Positions 9,121-63,769 of a stretch of DNA of 64,000 nucleotides are shown here, in pieces. This stretch comes from Siphonodentalium dalli (Eukaryota; Mollusca; Scaphopoda; Gadilida; Siphonodentaliidae), in assembly GCA_032622095.1 (NCBI GenBank), contig CP136066.1, forward strand, positions 199,352,978-199,416,977. The letters are read 5' to 3'. The notes beneath the pieces are model-generated. The model saw only the letters and a list, made by a program, of their open reading frames with translations, was not told the DNA's origin and did not search any database. The translations under genes and the position numbers were made by a program. Every line of letters begins with the position of its first letter. The stretch's first letter is position 1.

Positions 9121-10087
9121 TATGTAGATTAAATGCTTCCGTTCAGGGCGTGCATGCGCCGGTATGAGGCTGATACAGACCCTGGCGCATGCATACGGAC
9201 CCTGACTTTTATACGGACCACCGAATGTTACGGACCCTGGCTTAAAGAAATGCCCATGGAATTCGTCCGAATATACCCCCACCCCATCGATCTGAAGTTT
9301 TAGTATGGCATATTTGGTTTTACAAACTGTTCTGATTTAATTTTATTAACGGTTATATCTTCTTTGGCATGATGTATCCCCCTGTTTTCCATGTCGCTAC
9401 GTCCCTACATGTGCTTGTTGTGAACAACATGGTATCATAGCCCATATTAGTAGTGCTCACCTCGGTGGACCAAGTATTTGTTTGAATGATCGGGAATGCA
9501 TCTAATTGGTCAATCAAGCTGTGCGCCGCGAATACAATGCAAAAGCTTGCTGTAATCACGATAGACTGTTTGATAGAACAGACGACGACTTCAAGATCTT
9601 TACAGTAAATAACGGTCGGTCACCGGACCTCATTAGATAACTTCCATTGGTCGAGGGCTGATTGGCGTGTTTTAAATAATGTGATCTGGGGGGGGGGGGG
9701 TCGAAAATTAAGTCGGCCTTTAATTTCAATATCCGTCTAACTCCCGAGGTAAGCAAATTGTGATCCTATCAAAGAATCACGACTTAGCGTATAGTGGCAT
9801 GCATCGATACAAGCACAATGACACAATGTCCAGTTGTGTGCATTGCTATTATATGGGTAATTTCTAACCTGACACTCTGATGTTGAACTATCTCCAAATG
9901 ATGGCCATTAAGTCCAAAGGTTTGATGAAAATAAGAGAAATATGTGACTATTGGTTCAAATACAGCACATTAACCACTAAAAATCAAACTGTGAGAATAA
10001 TTGTAACATATTTTAGTTTGGAATTTCGAACTAAACTGTCAGCCATGATATTTCCGACTGTTGAACTGTTTTACCAAAGTTGATTTG
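9121..10087. other. No supported gene; poly-G run
   Basis: Contains repeated phrases CGGACCCTG near 9177-9240, a poly-G run at about 9689-9700 and short frames without recognisable domains. A minus-strand stretch at 9452-9518 has splice-like borders but no recognisable family. It would lie downstream of the last MAM exon found. Confidence 0.45.
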
Positions 10088-10222
10088 GGATGTGAGACAA
10101 CACAACATCTGTCGCCACGTCCTGAGTACGAGGGATGTGAGACAACACAACCCCTGTCGCCACGCCCTGCGTACGTGGGGTGTGAGACAACACAGCCCCT
10201 GTCGCCACGCCCTGAGTACGTT
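10088..10222. repeat. Minisatellite of about 48 bp, three units, beside the MAM exon donor
   Basis: The unit GATGTGAGACAACACAACC ... CTGTCGCCACGCCCTGAGTACG recurs three times (from about 10089, 10137 and 10185). The array starts about 15 bp into the intron downstream (minus strand) of the exon 10236-10329. On the minus strand it is open and would read through as a repeated Cys/Arg-rich peptide if the intron were retained. Confidence 0.85.
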
Positions 10223-21746: not shown

Positions 21747-24700
21747 TTTTGTTTTTTTTGTTTTTTTGTTTTGGAATATTTTATTTTTTCATTATATTAC
21801 ACATTTATATTATGTACAGAACAATATCTGATAACAACGATTGCATAAATATATAGACGGGAATGGTGGGGGGGGTCGACATTCGTACACAACTTACACA
21901 CTCCTTGCACACACATTGATATAGTAATAACATTGTATGCGTACATGTATACACGTATATATATATATATATTTATGCCAGTTATATTCTGTCTCAAATT
22001 TGTTCATGAACTTTGGACTGGTTTGCCGAATGTCAGATTGTAAACTCGGACTATTTACTATTCAAGATGATTATGTTCCCTGCTAAGTTAGTTATGTGTG
22101 TGCCCTGTTGTTTGTTGCATGGCTTTCATTAGGTCCCCCCACTCGAGTTGGAAATTGTTCAGATCGTCGGAGTTCAGTGCAATATATCGATACGATTTAT
22201 ATCGTAATTCAAATTCTCGAATGAGTAATTTCAGAGAGAGTTCGTCGGGGTTAAATTTTGTTTTATACAGATAATATTTCAGAATTGATAGTATAAGAAA
22301 GTTTAGTTTGTGTTTTTATTGTGAGCACCAATCCCAAAAAGAATGTTTTTCCGAGAAAGCGAGATGCCCAGTTGATAGCGATCTAGCCAGGCCTGAGTGG
22401 TATTTACAAACGTTCTTACAAATGGACAGTCAAAAAAAATATGCGAAATTGATTCGTTTGCGACGTTGCATCTGAGACATAGACCGTCTGACCGAATTCG
22501 CATTATGTTCAAAAGTCTGTTTGTGCCTATAATTCTAGTCAGTATTCGGTATTGAAACCAGCGTAGTTTTGTGTCGACTAATAGTTTGAAGGGTGATGAA
22601 CATATATGTTTCCAGTGAAGGGAACATCTTAATTCATTTTCCCATTTCATTTGCGACGATGATTGTCCTATTTTAGTCGCTTTTATGAATTCGTCGTAAA
22701 CATTTCTGCAACCTCGCTCATTCTGAAGTAGTGATACTATATTTTCAGGAATGATTGGATTTTGAACCCTGACGATTGTTTGATCGGTCCGTTTTAATAA
22801 CCTATTAATTTGTCTGTTTAGGCCGTGTAAAGTGATAAAGTTTGTGGTGATATTGTTCTTAGTTCTAAGAGTTTCGATGGAATGTAGCTTATTGTCTTCG
22901 GTGAACATATCATTTATGAATGTTATGCCTTTGTCCTTCCACTCAGCGACGTCTATCATTGAGTCGTCGATCAACAATTCATCATTGTTCCAAATTGTCT
23001 GCGTCATGCCGTATCGAGGCTCTTTACTTTTTATGTCCAGAAAATTACGCCAGGCTACAAAGACGTCACGCCAGAAAGGATTCCCAATAGTCGACTCGCA
23101 TCTTTTTATATATTTTGAACCATATGTCGCAAATAGAGGGTCATTTATTATTTGTTTTGGTGCCAAATTTCTCCATTGAGTTGTTTTCGTTATGCACCTT
23201 CGAATCCATGTTATTTTTAATGAGTCGATGAAATATTTTAGGTGCACCATTCTTAAACCACCGTTTTCATATTCTTCGCACAGTTGCATTCTTTTTATTC
23301 TATCACGTTTTCCATTCCAAATGAATCTGAACAAAATGGTATTCATTTCGTCTATGAACTTTTTATCTGGATTTGGCAAAGCTATAAATAAGTGAACAAA
23401 TTTTGGTATTAGAATAGATTTTATCAAAGTAATTTTACCAAGTGGTGTTAAGAGTCTATATTTCCATTTATTTATCGATTTCTTTAATTCATCAATCTTC
23501 CCCATGTAGTTGAGTTGCAGAGTCTCTGTCGGATTAGTGCAAAATTTTATACCTAACAACGTGAAAGAATTTGATACCTTAATGTGACAATTTGGGATTG
23601 GTGCCAATCCACAGTTCTTTTTTGTCCCCAACCAGACAATTTCACATTTATCAATATTAACTTTCAAACCAGACATTCTGGCAAACAAGTCCAATACATT
23701 AAGAACTTCACGGAAGCTAGTATCGCTCCCATCAATAATTAGTGTGGTGTCGTCAGCATATTGGTTAATCTTGTACTCTGCCCTACCGAGTGTTACACCA
23801 TGAATATTTGTGTTCTGTCTTATGATAGTGGCCAGTACCTCAGCGCAAAGCAACAATATATACGGTGAGAGTGTATCCCCTTGTGTATACATCCTCTGGA
23901 TGGATTAAAATATGAAGATATGCTACCATTTACCTGAACTGCAGATTGTATATTTGTGTAGAATGTTTTCACCCATCTCTTTATTGAGTCACCTAGATTG
24001 AATTGCGATAAACATTTGTTAATGAATGACCATTCAACTGTGTCAAATGCTTTTTCAAAGTCAATTAATAGAAGCATCCCGGGTATGTTATGTCGTTCTG
24101 TTTCGTGAATTATGTCATATATCAGTCTTGTGTTATCCCCTATATATCTTCCCGATAGGAATCCCGTTTGATCTTCATTAATAATTTTGGGAAGAACAGT
24201 TTTTAATCTGTTTGCAATGCAAGCTGAAGCCAGTTTATATGTAATATTTAAGAGGGATATGGGGCGCCAGTTTTTAAGATGTTGTCTAGCTTTGTCTTTC
24301 TTTGGAATGAGGGTGATGATACCTTGCTTTTGAGTAATTGACATTTCCTGTTTTTTAAAAGCATCATTTAACGAGTTCAGTACATACATTCCGATATCTT
24401 TCCAAAAGAATTTGAAACATTCTACACTGTAACCGTCTGGGCCGGGTGATTTTCCGTTTTTAAATGTTTTAAGTGTTTTGGTAAGTTCCGTGTATGTTAT
24501 TACGCCTTCTATGGACGCTGCGTCATTCGATGTTAGCGATCGGTAGGTTATATTTTGTGGGATTTCGTACTTAACACCATTGTTTATTTTAGTTGTGTAA
24601 AGATCCTCATAAAAAGTTTTGGTAGTTTCCATAATTTTCTCGGGGTCAGTAACTATGCGGTTCGATTGGTCCACTACTTCAGCTAGGGTTTTTGAAATAT

Positions 24701-26160
24701 ACTGTCGCTTCTCCATGTTTAGGAAATATTTCGTTGGTTTCTCTCCATCTTCAATGAACTTGGCTTTGGTGCGAATCATTTGTCCGCAATTTTATCCTTT
24801 CTACTAGCGGTTAGTTGTATGTCTATATTAGAAATTTCATTCAATAATTCGCTATTATTTGTGTCTTTCGAGTTGTCCAGTATACGTTCGATCTCCGATT
24901 TTCTATCTAGTAGAGTGTGATTTTTCTTTTCGTTCTGCTTCTTCAAACGCGAAGAATATTAAATTGTTTTCCCACGTAAATCTAACAGCAGAGCATCTAA
25001 AAATAATGCGTCTGATATTGCGAACATGTGTGGAGATTTATCTGAAAATCGATGCGAGATTTTATATCTACTAACATTTTCCTGTATTGTTTCTCTAACG
25101 ATATTTTGGTAATCCAGTCTGAATAAAAGAGAATTGTTGAACTTCCAAAAACCGCGGCCATGCTTTATATTACTGACGCGAAGGTCGAGTGAGATAATTG
25201 AGTGGTCGCTTCTATACCCCGTGAGTATGTCCGGAGTATCGGAAGTCAGATTCAAAAGATCAGATGATATCAAGAAAAAGTCGAGCCGGGCCATTTTTAG
25301 TGGTCGAGAACGTCGCCATGTAAATCTTTTCGTTGTGGGGTTATTTAGTCTCCATGGGTCAGTCAGTTCCAGACTGCCAGCTAGGGATTTAACTGCGGAT
25401 TTTGCTTTCGGGTTATTAACGTTAATATAATGTTTTGTATCTAGATTTTGTTCCTGCACAAGATTCCAGTCACCGCATACAATAATCTGTGTATTGCCAA
25501 TTGTTCGGATCTGTTCGTGAATTTCATCATAAAAGCTCGGGCTGTCCTCGTTTGGTCCATAAATAGCAGCCAATGTAACGCGCATATCTTCTATCGTAAT
25601 ATCTAATATCAAACAATTGCCATTTTTGTCGCGTTTTGAGTCGTGGATTTTGAACTGAAACGTGTTTCTGAAAAGTATGGCTACACCCCTAGATTGGGAA
25701 TCATAAGATGCGAACCTACCGTCAAATCCCCATTCTGATTTGATAATGTTTTCTATTTCATTTGTAAAATGTGTGTCTTGTAAACAGTAAATAGAACCCC
25801 CGAGACCTTTAAGGTAATTAAACACATCGCGTCGTTTCTCCACCTGGTGTAACCCTCGGCAGTAAATTGGCAGATACAATTTTAACGGACGACATAACTA
25901 AGTATTATTTGACGACACCACATCATATAGTCTTTGAATGGATTATAGTACACATATAATTTGCTGAATGAACATATAGTACATGTATGATATTCTGTTA
26001 AGTTGATAAATAGTATATAATGTTCACGATTTAATGCAAAAACAACATTGATGATTAGACACACACACATTTCATTCATACTATGGATGGGGGAGGGGTA
26101 AAACCAAACAAATGGAATGTCAATACATTCGCTGACCGGTTTGAATGTCATCTTGCCTGA
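21747..26160 (-). mobile_element. L1-like LINE retrotransposon, 4.4 kb, minus strand
   Basis: The block is bounded by a 15-bp direct repeat. On the minus strand it ends in an A-rich tail (seen as T-rich 21747-21775), as expected for target-primed reverse transcription. It contains one long but broken ORF2-type coding region (22303-25895). Only about 265 bp precede this region, so ORF1 is missing or the copy is 5' truncated. A poly-C run and a (TA)n tract occur near 21840-21970. Confidence 0.9.
22303..25895 (-). pseudogene. LINE ORF2: AP endonuclease plus reverse transcriptase, frameshifted
   Basis: The order is apurinic endonuclease (about 25880-25150), reverse transcriptase (about 24780-23600) and C-terminal zinc region (about 22500-22420). 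Endonuclease landmarks: YCLQDTH, SRGVAILF, YGPNEDSPSFYDEI, IIVCGDWNLV, RPLKMARLDFFLIS and GYRSDHSIISLDL. Reverse transcriptase landmarks: KSPGPDGYSVECFKFFWK, LIPKKDK, NWRPISLLN, LLIDFEKAFDTVEW, QGDTLSPYILLLCAE and the catalytic YADD. A C-x2-C...H...C knuckle (CLRCN...SHIFFDCPF) closes it. Motif wording resembles the L1/Tx1 group. Three breaks are seen: a frame change near 25870 just after the likely ATG (25895), disruption between 24959 and 24779, and a frameshift near 23880. The copy is therefore inactive. Confidence 0.9.
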
Positions 26161-30754: not shown

Positions 30755-32165
30755 CATTTGTTTGTTTTTTGTTTTGTTTTGTTTTGTTTTTCCAGACTCG
30801 TATGTGGGATTGTCATTTAAGAAAAACGTTTGGTATTCTTTATGTACTTTTGAACTTCTATGGCGATTATAGAATTGGTTTCGTATGAAAGTTCGGATGA
30901 CCCACGTAGAAGTATTTCTGTTGTTGGGTCACATTTTTCAGATAACGTATTTAACAATGCGGTTCTCTGTATAGAGTATGTTATACAATGCAGTAGAAAA
31001 TGTTCGCTGTCCTCGAGATCACCGCATACACAATACGGGTTGTCAGTTAGGAAGTTCGCGTATTTGTGGTAGTTTAAGTTACTACAATTCAACCGTAGTC
31101 TTACGTGTAGAATATGAGAATGGCGCGAATGTGAGCAGTTAAAGTGCTTGGGGATTTTAGTTCGGTTGGTCTCTAACGATTTTGTGAACGAAGCTAACGA
31201 TTCCATATTTACGCTATGGTCGAGGTTGTTCCACAGCTCTGTTGTCGAGGGGATGAAAGAGCGTCTATGGGTTTCTGAGTAAAATTCGGGGATTCTGAGA
31301 GCGTCTGCTTGTCTGGTTTTTATTCCGGATATTGCAATATTCGTGCGAGGAACATGATTTTGCAGATATGTAGGAGACATGCCATTAATCATTTTGTAGA
31401 ATAGTTTAAGTTTATATTTAGTTCGTCGCGCTTTCAAAGTTTCCCATCCAGTTTCCTTTAATAACGTGGAATTACTAACCGATCTGGTGGCACCTGTTAT
31501 GATTCGCGCGGCTTCGTACTGTATTTTCTCTATTTCGTCAGACTCCTGCTTAGTACAGCCATCCCAAATAACGCAAGCATACTCTAACACGGGTCTAACC
31601 AGGGTAAAATAACACTTTTGTAGAGATGATCTATTCAGATTATATCGATATTTTCGGAGGTAAGATACTGATTTCCACGCGGAGGTCGCCATTTGATTGA
31701 TATGCGCCCCCATGTACCATCTTTGCTCAGTACAGCTCCTAGGTGCTTATGCACTTCAACTTCCTTTATTTGTTGTTCATTCATTTGTAGGACTGGGTGT
31801 ACGATAAGTTTCTTTTTTCTGGTGCATGTTAGGGATTCGGTTTTTGTACCGTTAAATGTCACAAGCCATCGTTTTGACCACGATTCTAGGTGAGAAATGT
31901 CATCCTGAAGTTTGATTGAGTCTATAATTGGGTCATCAATACGTAGTGAAATGGACGTGTCATCGGCAAAAAGACGGACATTGCATGCTATATTTGGTAC
32001 AATATCGTTGATGTATACCAGGAATAAAATGGTGCCTAGTATAGAGCCTTGAGGTACTCCCGCTGTGACCCCTCCCCACTTAGAGGAGTATGATCCTAAC
32101 ACTACGCGTTGTTCTCGGTTTGATATGTATGATTCGAACCACTTTATAAGATATTTATAAGACTG
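30755..32165 (-). mobile_element. 5'-truncated LINE (Jockey/CR1-like), minus strand
   Basis: The 3' end carries an A-rich tail seen as TTTTG repeats at 30757-30790, only about 25 bp beyond the stop codon. The recognisable coding part begins in the middle of the reverse transcriptase near 32160, next to a C-run, so the endonuclease and the first half of the polymerase are lost. No clear target duplication was found. Confidence 0.8.
30817..32165 (-). pseudogene. Reverse transcriptase C-terminal half, Jockey/CR1-like, frameshifted
   Basis: First frame (32165-31635): WFESYISNREQRVVLG, GVPQGSILGTILFLVYINDI and the catalytic FADDTSI, then HLESWSKRWLVTFN and KHLGAVLSKDGTW. A frame change near 31700 leads to the second frame (31713-30817): YFTLVRPVLEYACVIWDG, QYEAARIITGA, KLFYKMINGMSP and a C-terminal C-x-C...EHFLLHC knuckle. 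GVPQGSILGPLLF, FADD and VRP.LEYA..W are standard for non-LTR polymerases of the Jockey/CR1 group. The truncation and frameshift make it inactive. Confidence 0.9.
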
Positions 32166-32328
32166 TTGTGACGCCCCCCCCCTGCCGCTACGTCCCTGCA
32201 CTCCATTCATAATGTAGTATACATGCACATGACGATATTACTGCTAACCGATTAAACGTTATGAGTAATCTCGATAATTATATTAATTATAAAGTACGAA
32301 CAGTTCAATAATCCTAACCATAGTCATT
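32166..32328. other. hAT-type end-like sequence and short spacer
   Basis: CTACGTCCCTG at 32188-32198 resembles a hAT terminus (CAGGGACGTAG on the minus strand). Its partner was not identified. Confidence 0.4.
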
Positions 32329-34262
32329 ACATTTTACGGATACGAATGTTGTGGTCCCATGTTAATTTTACGGATACGAATGTTGTGGTCCCATGTTAAT
32401 TTTACGGATACGAATGTTATGGTCCCATGTTAATTTTACGGATACGAATGTTGTGGTCCCATGTTATTTTTACGGATACGAATGTTGTGGTCCCATGTTA
32501 ATTTTACGGATACGAATGTTGTGGTCCCATGTCAATTTTACGGATACAAATGTTGTCGTCCCATGTTAATTTTACGGATACGAATGTTGTGGTCCCATGT
32601 TAATTTTACGGATACGAATGTTGTGGTTCCATGTTATTTTTACGTATACGAATGTTGTGGTCCCATGTTAATTTTACGGATACGAATGTTGTGGTCCCAT
32701 GTTAATTTTACGGATACGAATGTTGTGGTCCCATGTTAATTTTACGGATACGAATGTTGTGGTCCCATGTCAATTTTACGGATACGAATGTTGTGGTCCC
32801 ATGTCAATTTTACGGATACGAATGTTGTGGTACCATGTTAATTTTACGGATACGAATGTTGTTGTCCCATGTTAATTTTACGGATACGAATGTTGTGGTC
32901 CCATGTTAATTTTACGGATACGAATGTTGTGGTCCCATGTTAATTTTACGGATACGAATGTTGTGGTCCCATGTTAATTTTACGGATACGAATGTTGTGG
33001 CCCCATGTTAATTTTACGGATACGAATGTTGTGGACCCATGTTATTTTTACGGATACGAATGTTGTGGTCCCATGTTAATTTTACGGATACGAATGTTGT
33101 GATCCCATGTTAATTTTACGGATACGAATGTTGTGGTCCCATGTCAATTTTACGGATACGAATGTTGTGGTCCCATGTTAATTTTACGGATACGAATGTT
33201 GTGGTCCCATGTTAATTTTACGGATACGAATGTTGTGGTTCCATGTTATTTTTACGTATACGAATGTTGTGGTCCCATGTTAATTTTACGGATACGAATG
33301 TTGTGGTCCCATGTTAATTTTACGGATACGAATGTTGTGGTCCCATGTTAATTTTACGGATACGAATGTTGTGGTCCCATGTCAATTTTACGGATACGAA
33401 TGTTGTGGTCCCATGTCAATTTTACGGATACGAATGTTGTGGTACCATGTTAATTTTACGGATACGAATGTTGTTGTCCCATGTTAATTTTACGGATACG
33501 AATGTTGTGGTCCCATGTTAATTTTACGGATACGAATGTTGTGGTCCCATGTTAATTTTACGGATACGAATGTTGTGGTCCCATGTTAATTTTACGGATA
33601 CGAATGTTGTGGCCCCATGTTAATTTTACGGATACGAATGTTGTGGACCCATGTTATTTTTACGGATACGAATGTTGTGGTCCCATGTTAATTTTACGGA
33701 TACGAATGTTGTGGTCCCATGTTAATTTTACGGATACGAATGTTGTGGTCCCATGTCAATTTTACGGATACGAATGTTGTGGTCCCATGTTAATTTTACG
33801 GATACGAATGTTGTGGTCCCATGTTAATTTTACGGATACGAATGTTGTGGTCCCATGTTAATTTTACGGATACGAATGTTGTGGTCCCATGTTAATTTTA
33901 CGGATACGAATGTTGTGGTCCCATGTTAATTGTACGGATACGAATGCTGTGGTCCCATGTTAATTTTACGGATACGAATGTTGTGGTCCCATGTTAATTT
34001 TACGGATACGAATGTTGTGGTCCCATGTTAATTTTACGGATACGAATGTTGTGGTCCCATGTCAATTTTACGGATACGAATGTTGTGGTCCCATGTTAAT
34101 TTTACGGATACGAATGTTGTCCTCCCATGTTAATTTTACGGAAACGAATGTTGTCCTCCCATGTTAATTTTACGGATACGAATGTTGTCCTCCCATGTCA
34201 ATTTTACGTATACGAATAGCTATTAAACGAATGTTGTGGTCCCATGTCAATTTTACGGATAC
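32329..34262. repeat. 34-bp satellite, about 57 units, with a 612-bp higher-order repeat
   Basis: The unit combines ATTTTACGGATACGAATG and TTGTGGTCCCATGTTA. Variant units recur exactly 612 bp (18 units) apart: the TACGTATACG variant at 32641 and 33253, GTTGTCCC at 32861 and 33473, and GGACCCATGTTATTT near 33033 and 33645. Long open frames (for example 32461-32739) exist only because 34 is not a multiple of 3 and the unit lacks stops in that frame. They are not genes. Confidence 0.95.
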
Positions 34263-55900: not shown

Positions 55901-55994
55901 CGCAGACGACCGCCAGCGAATAGATCACGCTGACGTCAATGATTGTATTAGAAGACTTCGGGGGTGATCCGTCGTCCGTAACCACGATCGGCAC
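55901..55994 (-). CDS. Cadherin gene, exon: end of an extracellular repeat
   Basis: The minus-strand acceptor is TTAATTTCCAG and the exon starts in phase 0. It encodes VPIVVTDDGSPPKSSNTIID followed by VSVIYS. V.V.DDGSPP.SS.T.I.V.V is the typical F-G strand part of a cadherin repeat. The proposed donor GTAATA (55900-55895) leaves one base of the next codon. If it is not used, the frame runs on through a hydrophobic stretch to a stop at 55865-55863. It follows naturally after exon 57616-57738 (..ADTTLH). No DXNDN calcium motif is visible at its end, so either the next exon carries it or this linker is degenerate. The 3' border is less certain than the 5' border. Confidence 0.75.
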
Positions 55995-56339
55995 CTGGAA
56001 ATTAAAGAAAACACGTGAGATATTGTCAATTTTTGATTACTTTTTTCAATTGCATTCCCAATGGTTTGATATAAAATAAAGTACCTAAAGTGATCTATTC
56101 GTGTGCCAGTATGACGTCGCTGTGGATACGACATCTGACATCACATATAACAGTACATTGTTGGTGTAATACCACGTGAACGTGCGTTTACTAATTTATT
56201 AACTACCGAAAAGTTTATTTTGTGATATGACAAACATGTTGTTTTGGCGATGTGGCTAACGAATATTTGCCATTTTAATTAATTTCTGAATTTCCGGTCA
56301 ATATTTATGATTTTACTAATATTTATTGTTTAAAGTATA
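55995..56339. other. Intron sequence, nothing recognised
   Basis: AT-rich DNA upstream of the exon on the minus strand. Confidence 0.5.
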
Positions 56340-56515
56340 AACCAAGTAACGCCTTTACGCAATGAATGGTGTTATCTTGGCTATATTTAAAGATAAATGT
56401 TACAGTTTAAATTGAATTGCAATGACATTTCCAAGATGGCGCCGAATCAAATTCAAGAAAAGCGAACTTAGAACTACGTAACACATGCGCTGTTGGGCTG
56501 CGCCCAGCTGGTCAT
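56340..56515 (+). repeat. Dispersed repeat family S, copy 1
   Basis: Inverted relative of about 63335-63565. Shared: AATGGTGTTAT, CAGTTTAAATTGA, TTGCAAT, CATTTCC, AAGATGGCG and the GCTGCGCCCAGCTGGTC terminus. Confidence 0.8.
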
Positions 56516-56861
56516 CCTTAACAAATAGTTTAACTCTTTAAAGTGTCAACTCAAAACAGAACCTTTATTAGTTGTCCATTCTCATCCACCATCCCTAAGA
56601 GGGCATGATTTCAACCGGAAGTCAACAGCGCAATCTGCTCCGATTGCTCAAGAAATCGTAATGTTGTCTATATAACTGGTCACAGGATCAGCGTTATTTC
56701 TGCGGTCATTATTAGTAATTTAGGTTCCAGCGCCGAAATCCTATTTTTTTTTGCTATCCTCGATGAACCGTAAGCGGAATAAAACAGTACTGCGATTTTT
56801 AGATTTCGATATATGTTGTCTATATAATTTATGACAAAATCAGATTCGTTAGCTTACATAC
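56516..56861. other. Intron sequence, nothing firm
   Basis: Contains ATGTTGTCTATATAA twice (56661 and 56812) and otherwise nothing recognised. Confidence 0.45.
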
Positions 56862-56954
56862 GCCTTGCAGCCGACACCACAGGATGATAATAAAGGTAGT
56901 AATATAACCATATCCAGAGTTGGAGGCATCAACACGAAACCGCAAATCAGGCAA
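56862..56954 (-). CDS. Candidate cadherin exon (alternative or degenerate)
   Basis: Bounded by TTGAGCAG and GTATGT on the minus strand; 93 bp, phase 0 at both ends, no stop. It encodes LPDLRFRVDASNSGYGYITT and FIIIL. FRVDASNSG...TTFIIIL resembles the V.A.D.G....T..I.V strands of a cadherin repeat, the same part encoded by 55901-55994. Both could follow exon 57616-57738 in frame. The last residues (WCRLQG) fit a cadherin poorly, so it may be a decayed or alternatively used copy, or a false call. Confidence 0.4.
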
Positions 56955-56995
56955 CTGCTCAATTATGAAATCTGAAATTGTCCGTCGAAGGCTGG

Positions 56996-57615
56996 ATAGA
57001 TATTCGCATGTAAAGGCCATATATATACTCACGTGTAGAGGCCGTATATCCACTCTTATGAACAGGATGTATATACACTCACATACATAGGCTGTATAGA
57101 TGCTCGAATGTAAAGGTCATATGGGTAATCGCATGTAAAGTGAGTATAGCTAATCACATGTAAAGGTCGCATAGATACTCACATGTAAAGTCGGTATATA
57201 TACTCGCATGTAAAGGCCGTATATATACTCACATTAATGTCCGGATATATACTCACATGTAAAGTCCGTATATATACTCACATGTAAACTCCGTGTAGAT
57301 ACTCACATGTAAAGTCGGTATATATACTCGCATGTAAAGGCCGTATAGATACTCACATTAAAGTCCGGATAGATACTCACATGTAAAGGTCGTATAGATA
57401 CTCACATGTAAAGTCCGTATATATACTCACATGTAAACTCCGTATAGATACACCCACGTGTAACGGTCGTGTAGCTACTCACATGTAAAGGACACACATA
57501 TACTCACATGACTTTTTGAAAAGGATGTATATATATTCACATGTAAAGGCTGTATATATACTCACATGTAAAGGTCGTATATATACTCACAAGTAAATGC
57601 CGTATAGATACTCAC
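56996..57615 (-). repeat. 25-bp minisatellite made of splice-donor-like units
   Basis: About 25 units. On the minus strand the unit contains ACATGTGAGTATATATACG or close variants; GTGAGTAT is a strong 5' splice site. The array abuts the cadherin exon 57616-57738, whose own end reads CGACCTTGCAT|GTGAGTATCTATACG. The unit therefore resembles the last bases of the exon plus the first bases of its intron, repeated away from the exon. Units near the far end (56996-57130) are most diverged. Confidence 0.9.
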
Positions 57616-57738
57616 ATGCAAGGTCGTGTCTGCGAGCTGTTCCAGACTTGTGATGACCGTCAGATATCCATGGAATGGGTGAATATATAAGTAACGCTCA
57701 GCCACTGATCCAGCCTCGATCTCGAAGGTGTAGTTATT
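57616..57738 (-). CDS. Cadherin gene, exon: middle of an extracellular repeat
   Basis: Acceptor GATATTTCAG and donor GTGAGT (57615-57610). 123 bp, 41 codons, phase 0 on both sides. It encodes NNYTFEIEAGSVAERYLYIH and then PFHGYLTVITSLEQLADTTL-H. The pattern Y.FEI..G......I....G.L.V...LE.....L matches the central C-E strands of a cadherin repeat and has the same size and phase as exon 63650-63769. It follows exon 61055-61237, which ends ARDNDN. Calcium-dependent adhesion outside the cell is the family role. The usual DYE motif is replaced here by LEQ, suggesting weak or lost calcium binding at that site. Confidence 0.85.
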
Positions 57739-58160: not shown

Positions 58161-60311
58161 CATGAACATCATCGGTTGGTTGGTAGTACATGAACATCAT
58201 CGGTTGGTTGGTAATACATGAACATCATCGGTTGGTTGGTAATACATGAACACCATCGGTTGGTTGGTAATACATGAACACCATCGGTTGGTTGGTAATA
58301 CATGAACACCATCGGTTGGTTGGTAACACATGAACACCATCGGTTGGTTGGTAATACATGAACACCATCGGTTGGTTGGTAACACATGAACACCATCGGT
58401 TGGTTGGTAATACATGAACACCATCGGTTGGTTGGTAACACATGAACACCATCGGTTGGTTGGTAATACATGAACACCATCGGTTGGTTGGTAATACATG
58501 AACACCATCGGTTGGTTGGTAACACATGAACACCATCGGTTGGTTGGTAGTACATGAACATCATCGGTTGGTTGGTAACACATGAACACCATCGGTTGGT
58601 TGGTAGTACATGAACACCATCGGTTGGTTGGTAACACATGAACACCATCGGTTGGTTGGTAACACATGAACACCATCGGTTGGTTGGTAATACATGAACA
58701 CCATCGGTTGGTTGGTAATACATGAACACCATCGGTTGGTTGGTAATACATGAACACCATCGGTTGGTTGGTAACACATGAACACCATCGGTTGGTTGGT
58801 AATACATGAACATCATCGGTTGGTTGGTAATACATGAACACCATCGGTTGGTTGGTAATACATGAACACCATCGGTTGGTTGGTAACACATGAACACCAT
58901 CGGTTGGTTGGTAATACATGAACACCATCGGTTGGTTGGTAACACATGAACACCATCGGTTGGTTGGTAATACATGAACACCATCGGTTGGTTGGTAACA
59001 CATGAACACCATCGGTTGGTTGGTAATACATGAACACCATCGGTTGGTTGGTAACACATGAACATCATCGGTTGGTTGGTAACACATGAACACCATCGGT
59101 TGGTTGGTAGTACATGCACACCATCGGTTGGTTGGTAACACATGAACACCATCGGTTGGTTGGTAACACATGAACACCATCGGTTGGTTGGTAATACATG
59201 AACACCATCGGTTGGTTGGTAATACATGAACACCATCGGTTGGTTGGTAATACATGAACACCATCGGTTGGTTGGTAACACATGAACACCATCGGTTGGT
59301 TGGTAATACATGAACATCATCGGTTGGTTGGTAGTACATGAACATCATCGGTTGGTTGGTAATACATGAACATCATCGGTTGGTTGGTAATACATGAACA
59401 TCATCGGTTGGTTGGTAATACATGAACATCATCGGTTGGTAATACATGAACATCATCGGTTGGTTGGTAATACATGAACATCATCGGTTGGTTGGTAATA
59501 CATGAACATCATCGGTTGGTTGGTAATACATGAACATCATCGGTTGGTTGGTAATACATGAACATCATCGGTTGGTTGGCAATACATGAACATCATCGGT
59601 TGGTTGGTAATACATGAACATCATCGGTTGGTTGGTAATACATGAACATCATCGGTTGGTTGGTAATACATGAACATCATCGGTTGGTTGGTAATACATG
59701 AACATCATCGGTTGGTTGGTAATACATGAACATCATCGGTTGGTTGGTAATACATGAACATCATCGGTTGGTTGGTAATACATGAACATCATCGGTTGGT
59801 TGGTAATACATGAACATCATCGGTTGGTTGGTAATACATGAACATCATCGGTTGGTTGGTAATACATGAACATCATCGGTTGGTTGGTAATACATGAACA
59901 TCATCGGTTGGTTGGTAATACATGAACATCATCGGTTGGTTGGTAATACATGAACACCATCGGTTGGTTGGTTGGTAATACATGAACACCATCGGTTGGT
60001 TGGTTGGTAATACATGAACACCATCGGTTGGTTGGTTGGTAATACATGAACACCATCGGTTGGTTGGTAATACATGAACATCATCGGTTGGTTGGTAATA
60101 CATGAACATCATCGGTTGGTTTGTAATACATGAACACCATCGGTTGGTTGGTTGGTAATACATGAACACCATCGGTTGGTTGGTTGGTTGGTAATACACG
60201 AACACCATCGGTTGGTTGGTAATACATGAACATCATCGGTTGGTTGGTAATACATGAACATCATCGGTTGGTTGGTAATACATGAACATCATCGGTTGGT
60301 TGGTAATACAT
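58161..60311 (-). repeat. 28-bp satellite, about 77 units, in a cadherin intron
   Basis: Unit: ACATCATCGGTTGGTTGG plus TAATACATGA. Variants CACC/CATC and TAACACATG/TAGTACATG form a higher-order pattern in the left half: equivalent blocks start at 58561, 58813 and 59065, exactly 252 bp (9 units) apart. The right half (59340-59930) is nearly uniform. Units of 32 and 36 bp (extra GGTT) appear at 59945-60200 and a 24-bp unit near 59430. The long minus-strand frames of up to 383 codons follow from the stop-free unit and are not genes. Confidence 0.95.
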
Positions 60312-61054: not shown

Positions 61055-61237
61055 GTTATCGTTGTCTCTAGCGACGATGGTTGTGATTGCCGTACCGACT
61101 GGATCTACGCTTGTCACTGAGAGGCCAGGATAAGTTCCCACGACAACCGGAGCGGCGTTATTCCGCGTCACCGTAACGCGAATCCATGCCCTCGCCGTAA
61201 GCTCTGGCGTCCCACCGTCATATGCCTCAACCCCAAT
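61055..61237 (-). CDS. Cadherin gene, exon: end of one repeat and start of the next
   Basis: Acceptor ATATATTGTCAG and donor GTGAGT (61054-61049). 183 bp, 61 codons, phase 0 at both ends. It encodes IGVEAYDGGTPELTARAWIR, VTVTRNNAAPVVVG, a loop and GTAITTIVARDNDN. The A.D.G.PELTA...V.VTV element closes one extracellular repeat. TRNNAAP replaces the usual DVNDNAP linker, so two of its calcium ligands are changed. P.GT.I.T..A.D.D begins the next repeat. The exon joins 63650-63769 (upstream) and 57616-57738 (downstream) in frame, giving a continuous cadherin repeat pattern. Part of a larger adhesion protein; membrane segment not seen. Confidence 0.9.
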
Positions 61238-63649: not shown

Positions 63650-63769
63650 ACCATAAACTGTTCCCGTATCGAACTGTATGCCTTCCTTGGTCCTTAATTC
63701 GCCTGTCGGTTCAAGTGAAAAAAAACGTTCCTCGCTCTCCAATCTGTACATCACCTTGTTGAAAGGAGG
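63650..63769 (-). CDS. Cadherin gene, exon: middle of an extracellular repeat
   Basis: Acceptor ATATTTTCAG and donor GTAAGT (63649-63644). 120 bp, 40 codons, phase 0 at both ends. It encodes PPFNKVMYRLESEERFFSLE followed by PTGELRTKEGIQFDTGTVYG. Y.L.....FF.L.PTGEL.T...FD....Y is the standard centre of a cadherin repeat. FDTGT stands where LDRE/LDYE calcium residues usually sit. It reads directly into exon 61055-61237 (..TVYG then IGVEAYDGGTP..). This is the most upstream exon seen; the gene continues beyond the window. Confidence 0.9.

Follow-up and report, generated by a model that had tools for sequence, protein, structure and literature searches.

The end of a cadherin exon, its splice donor and the first bases of the following intron are repeated in tandem as a 25-bp minisatellite in the stretch of DNA analysed here (the window, C6:199352978-199416977, 64,000 nucleotides). 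Unit counts that rise along the gene tree of the paralogous exons, together with a genome search in which all matches to the unit pattern fall at copies of this exon, give good support to a birth of the array in place, from the exon-intron junction. Based on this dataset, we consider it rather likely that the junction was duplicated from an 8-bp direct repeat, that the array expanded to 16-27 copies, and that the later donors have been tolerated. In a single gene family of one genome, the copies form a natural gradation from one junction up to 27 units. It can thus be traced step by step how a splice junction gives rise to a minisatellite, and the arrays constitute a natural test of spliceosomal choice between numerous donors that are almost identical. 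The genome searched comprises 2.2 Gb in 9 contigs.

The cadherin exon and its array

The exon in question (E3; Table 1) is preceded by ...gatatttcag, with ttcag as acceptor, and its junction with the intron reads ...GACACGACCTTGCAT/GTGAGTATC (both on the minus strand; the slash marks the exon boundary). Translation gives the 41 residues NNYTFEIEAGSVAERYLYIHPFHGYLTVITSLEQLADTTLH. E3 is 123 nt long, lies between introns of 3316 nt upstream and 1621 nt downstream, and joins in frame with both of its neighbours, at 61237-61055 and at 55994. The four exons E1-E4, when joined, match the Pfam family Cadherin (PF00028, E=1.8e-13, 51.2 bits vs a cut-off of 28.8), and E3 alone with four more residues (45 aa) matched no Pfam family. 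At the junction of E3 and E4 the protein reads ...DTTLH/VPIVVTDDGSPP..., TLH being joined to VPIVVTDDGS, which we take to be a typical cadherin strand.

Table 1. Coordinates of the cadherin exons, the donor and the repeat array within the window
Feature	Position	Strand	Remarks
Upstream cadherin exon E1	63650..63769	minus	
Upstream cadherin exon E2	61055..61237	minus	
Cadherin exon E3	57616..57738	minus	41 codons, phase 0; its 3' end would have seeded the array
True splice donor CAT/GTGAGT	57610..57615	minus	kept in 8/8 genomic copies
25-bp minisatellite, 25.6 units	56988..57627	minus	first 12 bases exonic; 24 further donor slots
Host intron, 1621 nt	55995..57615	minus	predicted from sequence
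Next cadherin exon E4	55902..55994	minus	3' end approximate

TRF calls the repeat at 56988-57618, with a period of 25 and 24.9 copies. By wrap-around alignment the array runs from 12 nt within E3 to +627 and has an identity of 83%. The unit is composed of 12 exon and 13 intron bases, hence in the window copy it spans both the exon end and the donor, as a junction-derived donor minisatellite does. This start within the exon bears out the initial annotation, which had noted the resemblance of the unit to the last 12 bases of E3 and the beginning of the intron. The same annotation had proposed about 25 donor-like copies behind the true donor, and 24 later slots were indeed counted, 15 of them with an intact GTGAGT (16 of 25 if the true donor is included). 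Scoring of every unit, which it had recommended, revealed a computed score equal to that of the true donor in ten of those 24 later slots; U1 pairing of these ten amounts to -7.5 in nine slots, like the true donor, and to -7.2 in one. The computation relies on a general donor weight matrix and U1 sequence, and the register of the pairing was left free instead of being fixed to that of the donor.

The end of E3 scores 9 against the unit. The window has 49 more GTRAGT sites, none of which reaches this value (best 5), and among 63,295 minus-strand positions that lie outside the array 6 score at least 9. The exon end in the window (CCTTGCAT) has drifted from the unit, and the exon ends of four paralogous copies that carry no long array (C4a, C4b, C3 and C1c) score 11. 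Since these ends fit the unit better, the source of the array would be the ancestral junction and not the present-day exon.

Paralogous copies and the origin of the array

E3 has eight matches in the genome, with 84-100% identity and no stops, and both the acceptor and CAT/GTGAGTA are kept in all eight. Long arrays are present in four copies, namely the window copy on C6 (25.6 units), C6b (25.4), C1b (27.0) and C1a (16.0). The remaining copies have 1.8 (C1c), 1.3 (C4a), 0.8 (C4b) and 0.8 units (C3); in C4a, C4b and C3 the unit is the junction itself, and C1c carries a degenerate third piece past its aligned 1.8 units. Each of the four long arrays begins 8-14 nt inside the exon. A related array that does not touch the exon, which the initial annotation had named as a sign of accidental resemblance, was found in none of these four paralogues of the same genome.

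The gene tree of the copies, (C6win,C6b),(C1a,C1b),(C1c,(C4a,(C4b,C3))), has support values of 84-100. It was computed from up to five conserved blocks (two are missing in C1b, and one each in C4a, C1a and C1c), and its shape is unchanged when the exon block is omitted. Along this tree the unit counts increase from 0.8-1.3 (three copies) via 1.8 (one copy) to 16-27 (four copies), with C1c in an intermediate position, the array-free copies on one side and the long arrays on the other. A non-reversible model, computed without C1b, places the root so that the array-free copies stand apart from all others, at support values of only 53 and 61.

Such weak support of the root would be in line with an old array that was lost in the array-free copies, and contraction between the first and the last unit could bring back a lone junction. 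However, the tree would then demand at least two losses, or one loss plus a near-loss, and the intermediate state of C1c sits at a fitting place in the tree, which makes this history very unlikely. An unrelated dispersed satellite that came to lie beside the exon, with an accidental likeness to its end, deserves hardly any credence. Minisatellites abound in the genome (TRF gives 35 rows for the window, with some overlap), and one array elsewhere is loosely similar to the cadherin unit (72%, see below). On the other hand, the genome contains 27 matches to a pattern of 35 bases (1.4 units, up to 2 mismatches), a number that may be a lower bound because repeats are counted, and all 27 are located at E3 copies with at least two units (five copies); furthermore, the array-free copies already contain the unit as their junction. 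The reversed 35-base pattern, used as a control, has 0 matches in the genome. A satellite origin was rejected on the basis of this genome-wide search. The paralogue series and the unit pattern agree in pointing to an array built from the exon's own donor, as the initial annotation had claimed.

The preferred reading, a birth from the junction, can be followed to a possible starting point. The intron of C4a carries a second copy of an 8-bp piece of the exon end, ACGACCTT, at a distance of 24 bp downstream and across the donor; an 8-mer as good occurs in 499 of 200,000 shuffles of the C4a intron start, and in C4b and C3 the likeness to the exon end is weaker than in C4a. We read the 8-mer of C4a as the seed of the array, or as a trace of the first duplication, and a direct repeat of this kind was probably where the array started. 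In the mechanism we propose, the intron of an ancestral cadherin copy by chance repeated these 8 bp across the donor, and slippage or unequal exchange between the two repeats would have duplicated the exon end together with the donor. More rounds of the same process would have led to 16-27 copies, the later units all lying within the intron. Recognition of E3 would take place across the exon, because E3 is short amid long introns, and the donor nearest to the acceptor, which is the true one, would be used. Hence the extra donors could be tolerated, and the occasional use of a later donor would result in a frameshift or a stop and then be lost.

In the host genes, dN/dS ranges from 0.16 to 0.41 in 17 exon-only pairs, each of which includes C4a, C4b or C3 (an 18th pair is undefined), values that one would expect of functional genes. 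A higher value of 0.54, calculated from few changes (dN 0.027, dS 0.051), is obtained for the C6 pair over 399 joined bases. Values for C1c are unreliable in sets including E2, as E2 of C1c is one codon shorter and enters without realignment.

Consequences for splicing

The use of a later slot was predicted by the initial annotation to change the reading frame in most cases, and in the window all 24 alternative slots break the frame or reach a stop. The stop lies in the next exon for 2 slots and inside the insert for 22, and these 22 share one and the same stop codon. In the other copies, where the frame was followed for the first slots, stops result in 4 of 5 slots of C6b, 2 of 3 of C1b, 4 of 4 of C1a and 1 of 1 of C1c. 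The slots that stay open in frame are +27 in C6b, the second donor of this copy, and +54 in C1b, a weak GC site.

In minigenes that carry a pair of identical strong donors at a distance of 52 nt, only the upstream donor is used under exon definition; very weak donors kept the upstream preference in smaller exons and led to skipping of larger ones, and in human events overall the preference is for the downstream donor in about 60% (available part of PMC9225289). The strong donors of these minigenes, as described there, are CAG/guaagu, whereas the cadherin donor is CAT/GTGAGT. The lengths of E3 and of its introns fit the exon-definition case, and we therefore expect the first donor to dominate. 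Since every one of the 24 later slots would give a stop, and since minigenes with identical donors used the first donor only, the array is best read as a mostly silent by-product. It probably has little effect on splicing, and could have an effect on the amount of protein.

Comparison of the arrays of C6 and C6b suggests some constraint on the donor core. Changes in GTGAGT amount to 0/150 bases vs 18/470 elsewhere in the array (Fisher p=0.010), this six-base core being one of three classes examined. The context-corrected expectation is 3.2 core changes (Poisson p=0.042), with context rates taken from 8166 flanking bases and 202 changes. For the nine-base donor CAT/GTGAGT the difference in the same pair is not significant (3/222 vs 15/398 changed, p=0.13). 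Ranked among 20 phases of the unit, the core hexamer is 6th in the window copy, 3rd in C6b, 16th in C1b and 11th in C1a, and GTGAGT is kept in 6 of 26 slots of C1b and in 7 of 16 of C1a. Constraint on the donor core is suggestive for one gene pair (C6), and these data argue against a general constraint. Selection on the donors was considered and rejected, as position tests and hexamer ranks are mixed in sign.

A role of the array as decoy or regulator, put forward in the initial annotation, is not supported by these results, as the conservation of the hexamer in C1b and C1a is no better than that of the average unit stretch. One version of such a role would be that some transcripts use later donors, nearly all ending in premature stops and decay, and that the output of a given paralogue is thereby determined by the length of its array. 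Several observations would suit this idea: array length varies among the paralogues, the score of the true donor is attained by 10 of 24 later slots (nine with a U1 pairing of -7.5), all 24 alternatives in the window end in a stop, and the core is unchanged between the C6 copies. The human CBS VNTR is, moreover, reportedly linked to reduced activity, judging by the title of a report by Lievers from 2001. Nevertheless, we regard it as unlikely, in view of the low number of intact cores in C1b and their low rank, of the two slots (+27 in C6b and +54 in C1b) that stay in frame without a stop, and of the exclusive use of the upstream donor in identical-donor minigenes under exon definition (available part of PMC9225289), which equally speaks against a decoy. 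Protein diversity of the kind described for IFI6, where some downstream donors would be productive and residues would be added, appears highly improbable. The frame is kept at the two slots just named, and in IFI6 two downstream repeat units serve as donors and three mRNAs are formed (available part of PMC4526556). However, none of the 24 window slots has an open frame, and +54 in C1b is a weak site.

Known systems and similar arrays

The architecture of an array that consists of an exon end and its donor has already been published, namely for the human CBS VNTR and for the IFI6 minisatellite. The CBS VNTR has been proposed to act through splicing. The IFI6 unit is 12 bp long and keeps the reading frame, whereas the 25-bp cadherin unit breaks it. 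The minisatellite of IFI6 (6-16) is said to contain multiple splice donor sites, according to the title of a report by Turri from 1995.

The 31-bp VNTR of human CBS is denoted c.1444_1467+7(16_21) (available part of PMC2630376). By this notation, its unit comprises 24 bases of the exon end and 7 intron bases including the donor, in 16-21 copies. The donor is thus contained in the unit as in the cadherin array, where the division is 12 exon and 13 intron bases; CBS, as far as this source goes, is a human enzyme gene with a polymorphic repeat, whereas the present array belongs to a cadherin family in which its growth is traceable across paralogues. The likeness to IFI6 is that tandem units present donors behind the true donor. 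In human segmental duplications, differences in repeat number at exon-intron boundaries of recent paralogues alter gene structure; about half of the repeats are situated in coding exons, and those at boundaries can give rise to new introns (available part of PMC2812944). Unlike the repeats described there, the extra cadherin copies lie in an intron common to the paralogues. Earlier accounts of such arrays in the open-licence literature, within the portions available, are those of IFI6 and PMC2812944, CBS having been found by a targeted search.

Donor arrays occur in other parts of the genome as well. Three copies of AGGTGAGT at steps of 20-38 bases have 804 matches, vs 236 for the reversed motif. 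The matches listed run from C1 to C3:233.8 Mb; they were grouped by eye, and the five-prime end of each array was inspected. Among the matches listed there are 18 donor-motif arrays and 16 reversed-motif arrays (C1 to C3:234 Mb), or about 17 vs about 9 if each family is counted once. A genome-wide enrichment of donor arrays is suggestive but not clear. In at least 4 of the 18 arrays listed, a coding exon of a recognisable family ends at the first donor; L044 and L047 read alike and, counted once, leave at least 3 of 17. The families are fucolectin-like (L039; sequence match to FBP32, E=1.6e-7, and nothing in Pfam), NIDO (L044; Pfam, 8.7e-12) and nucleoside transporter (L056; Pfam, 7e-8, 32.8 bits vs a cut-off of 32.3; solved transporters match at E=0.00046). 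In each of them the homology of the unit extends 24-29 nt into the exon. Among the other 14 arrays, the peptides of four (L041, L042, L050 and L054) have no Pfam match over cut-off.

By our estimate, true donors make up a sizeable share of all AGGTGAGT sites. Given this share and the number of reversed-motif arrays, random seeding could suffice to account for 3 exon-abutting arrays in 17. The kind of array described here thus recurs, in three or more genes unrelated to each other, at a frequency that does not clearly exceed random seeding, and its presence in unrelated genes means that junction arrays can be surveyed as a class and not as single curiosities. A recurrent class of tens of genes, in which array length would tune output via unproductive splicing and diverge between fresh paralogues, seems quite unlikely.

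A looser DNA search with the cadherin unit yielded a single further array, 72% alike, on C1 at 258.5 Mb (L038:4351-4652, minus strand). It consists of 12 copies of a 25-bp unit, TTTTACAAG/GTGAGTATATGTATGA, and no exon is shown adjoining it.

The window itself contains additional repeats and open frames. An array of 28 bp with 76 copies occupies 58161-60311, in the intron upstream of E3, and is present in the window copy only. In C6b, where the adjoining sequence is 95-97% identical, a 14-base piece of the 28-bp unit is matched exactly once, and the compared stretches of the other six copies have no match to this piece. From this distribution, the array appears to be a second minisatellite caught at birth. 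A 34-bp array of 55 copies with 96% matches is found at 32331-34217. Long open frames at 22306-25897 and 30820-32237 (minus strand) presumably correspond to a LINE endonuclease and reverse transcriptase. Two further frames on the minus strand, 14865-14533 and 10458-10042, resemble what we take to be pieces of MAM domains; the latter is followed by a 45-bp array at 10086-10221, shortly after ...DDISMITGACPL.
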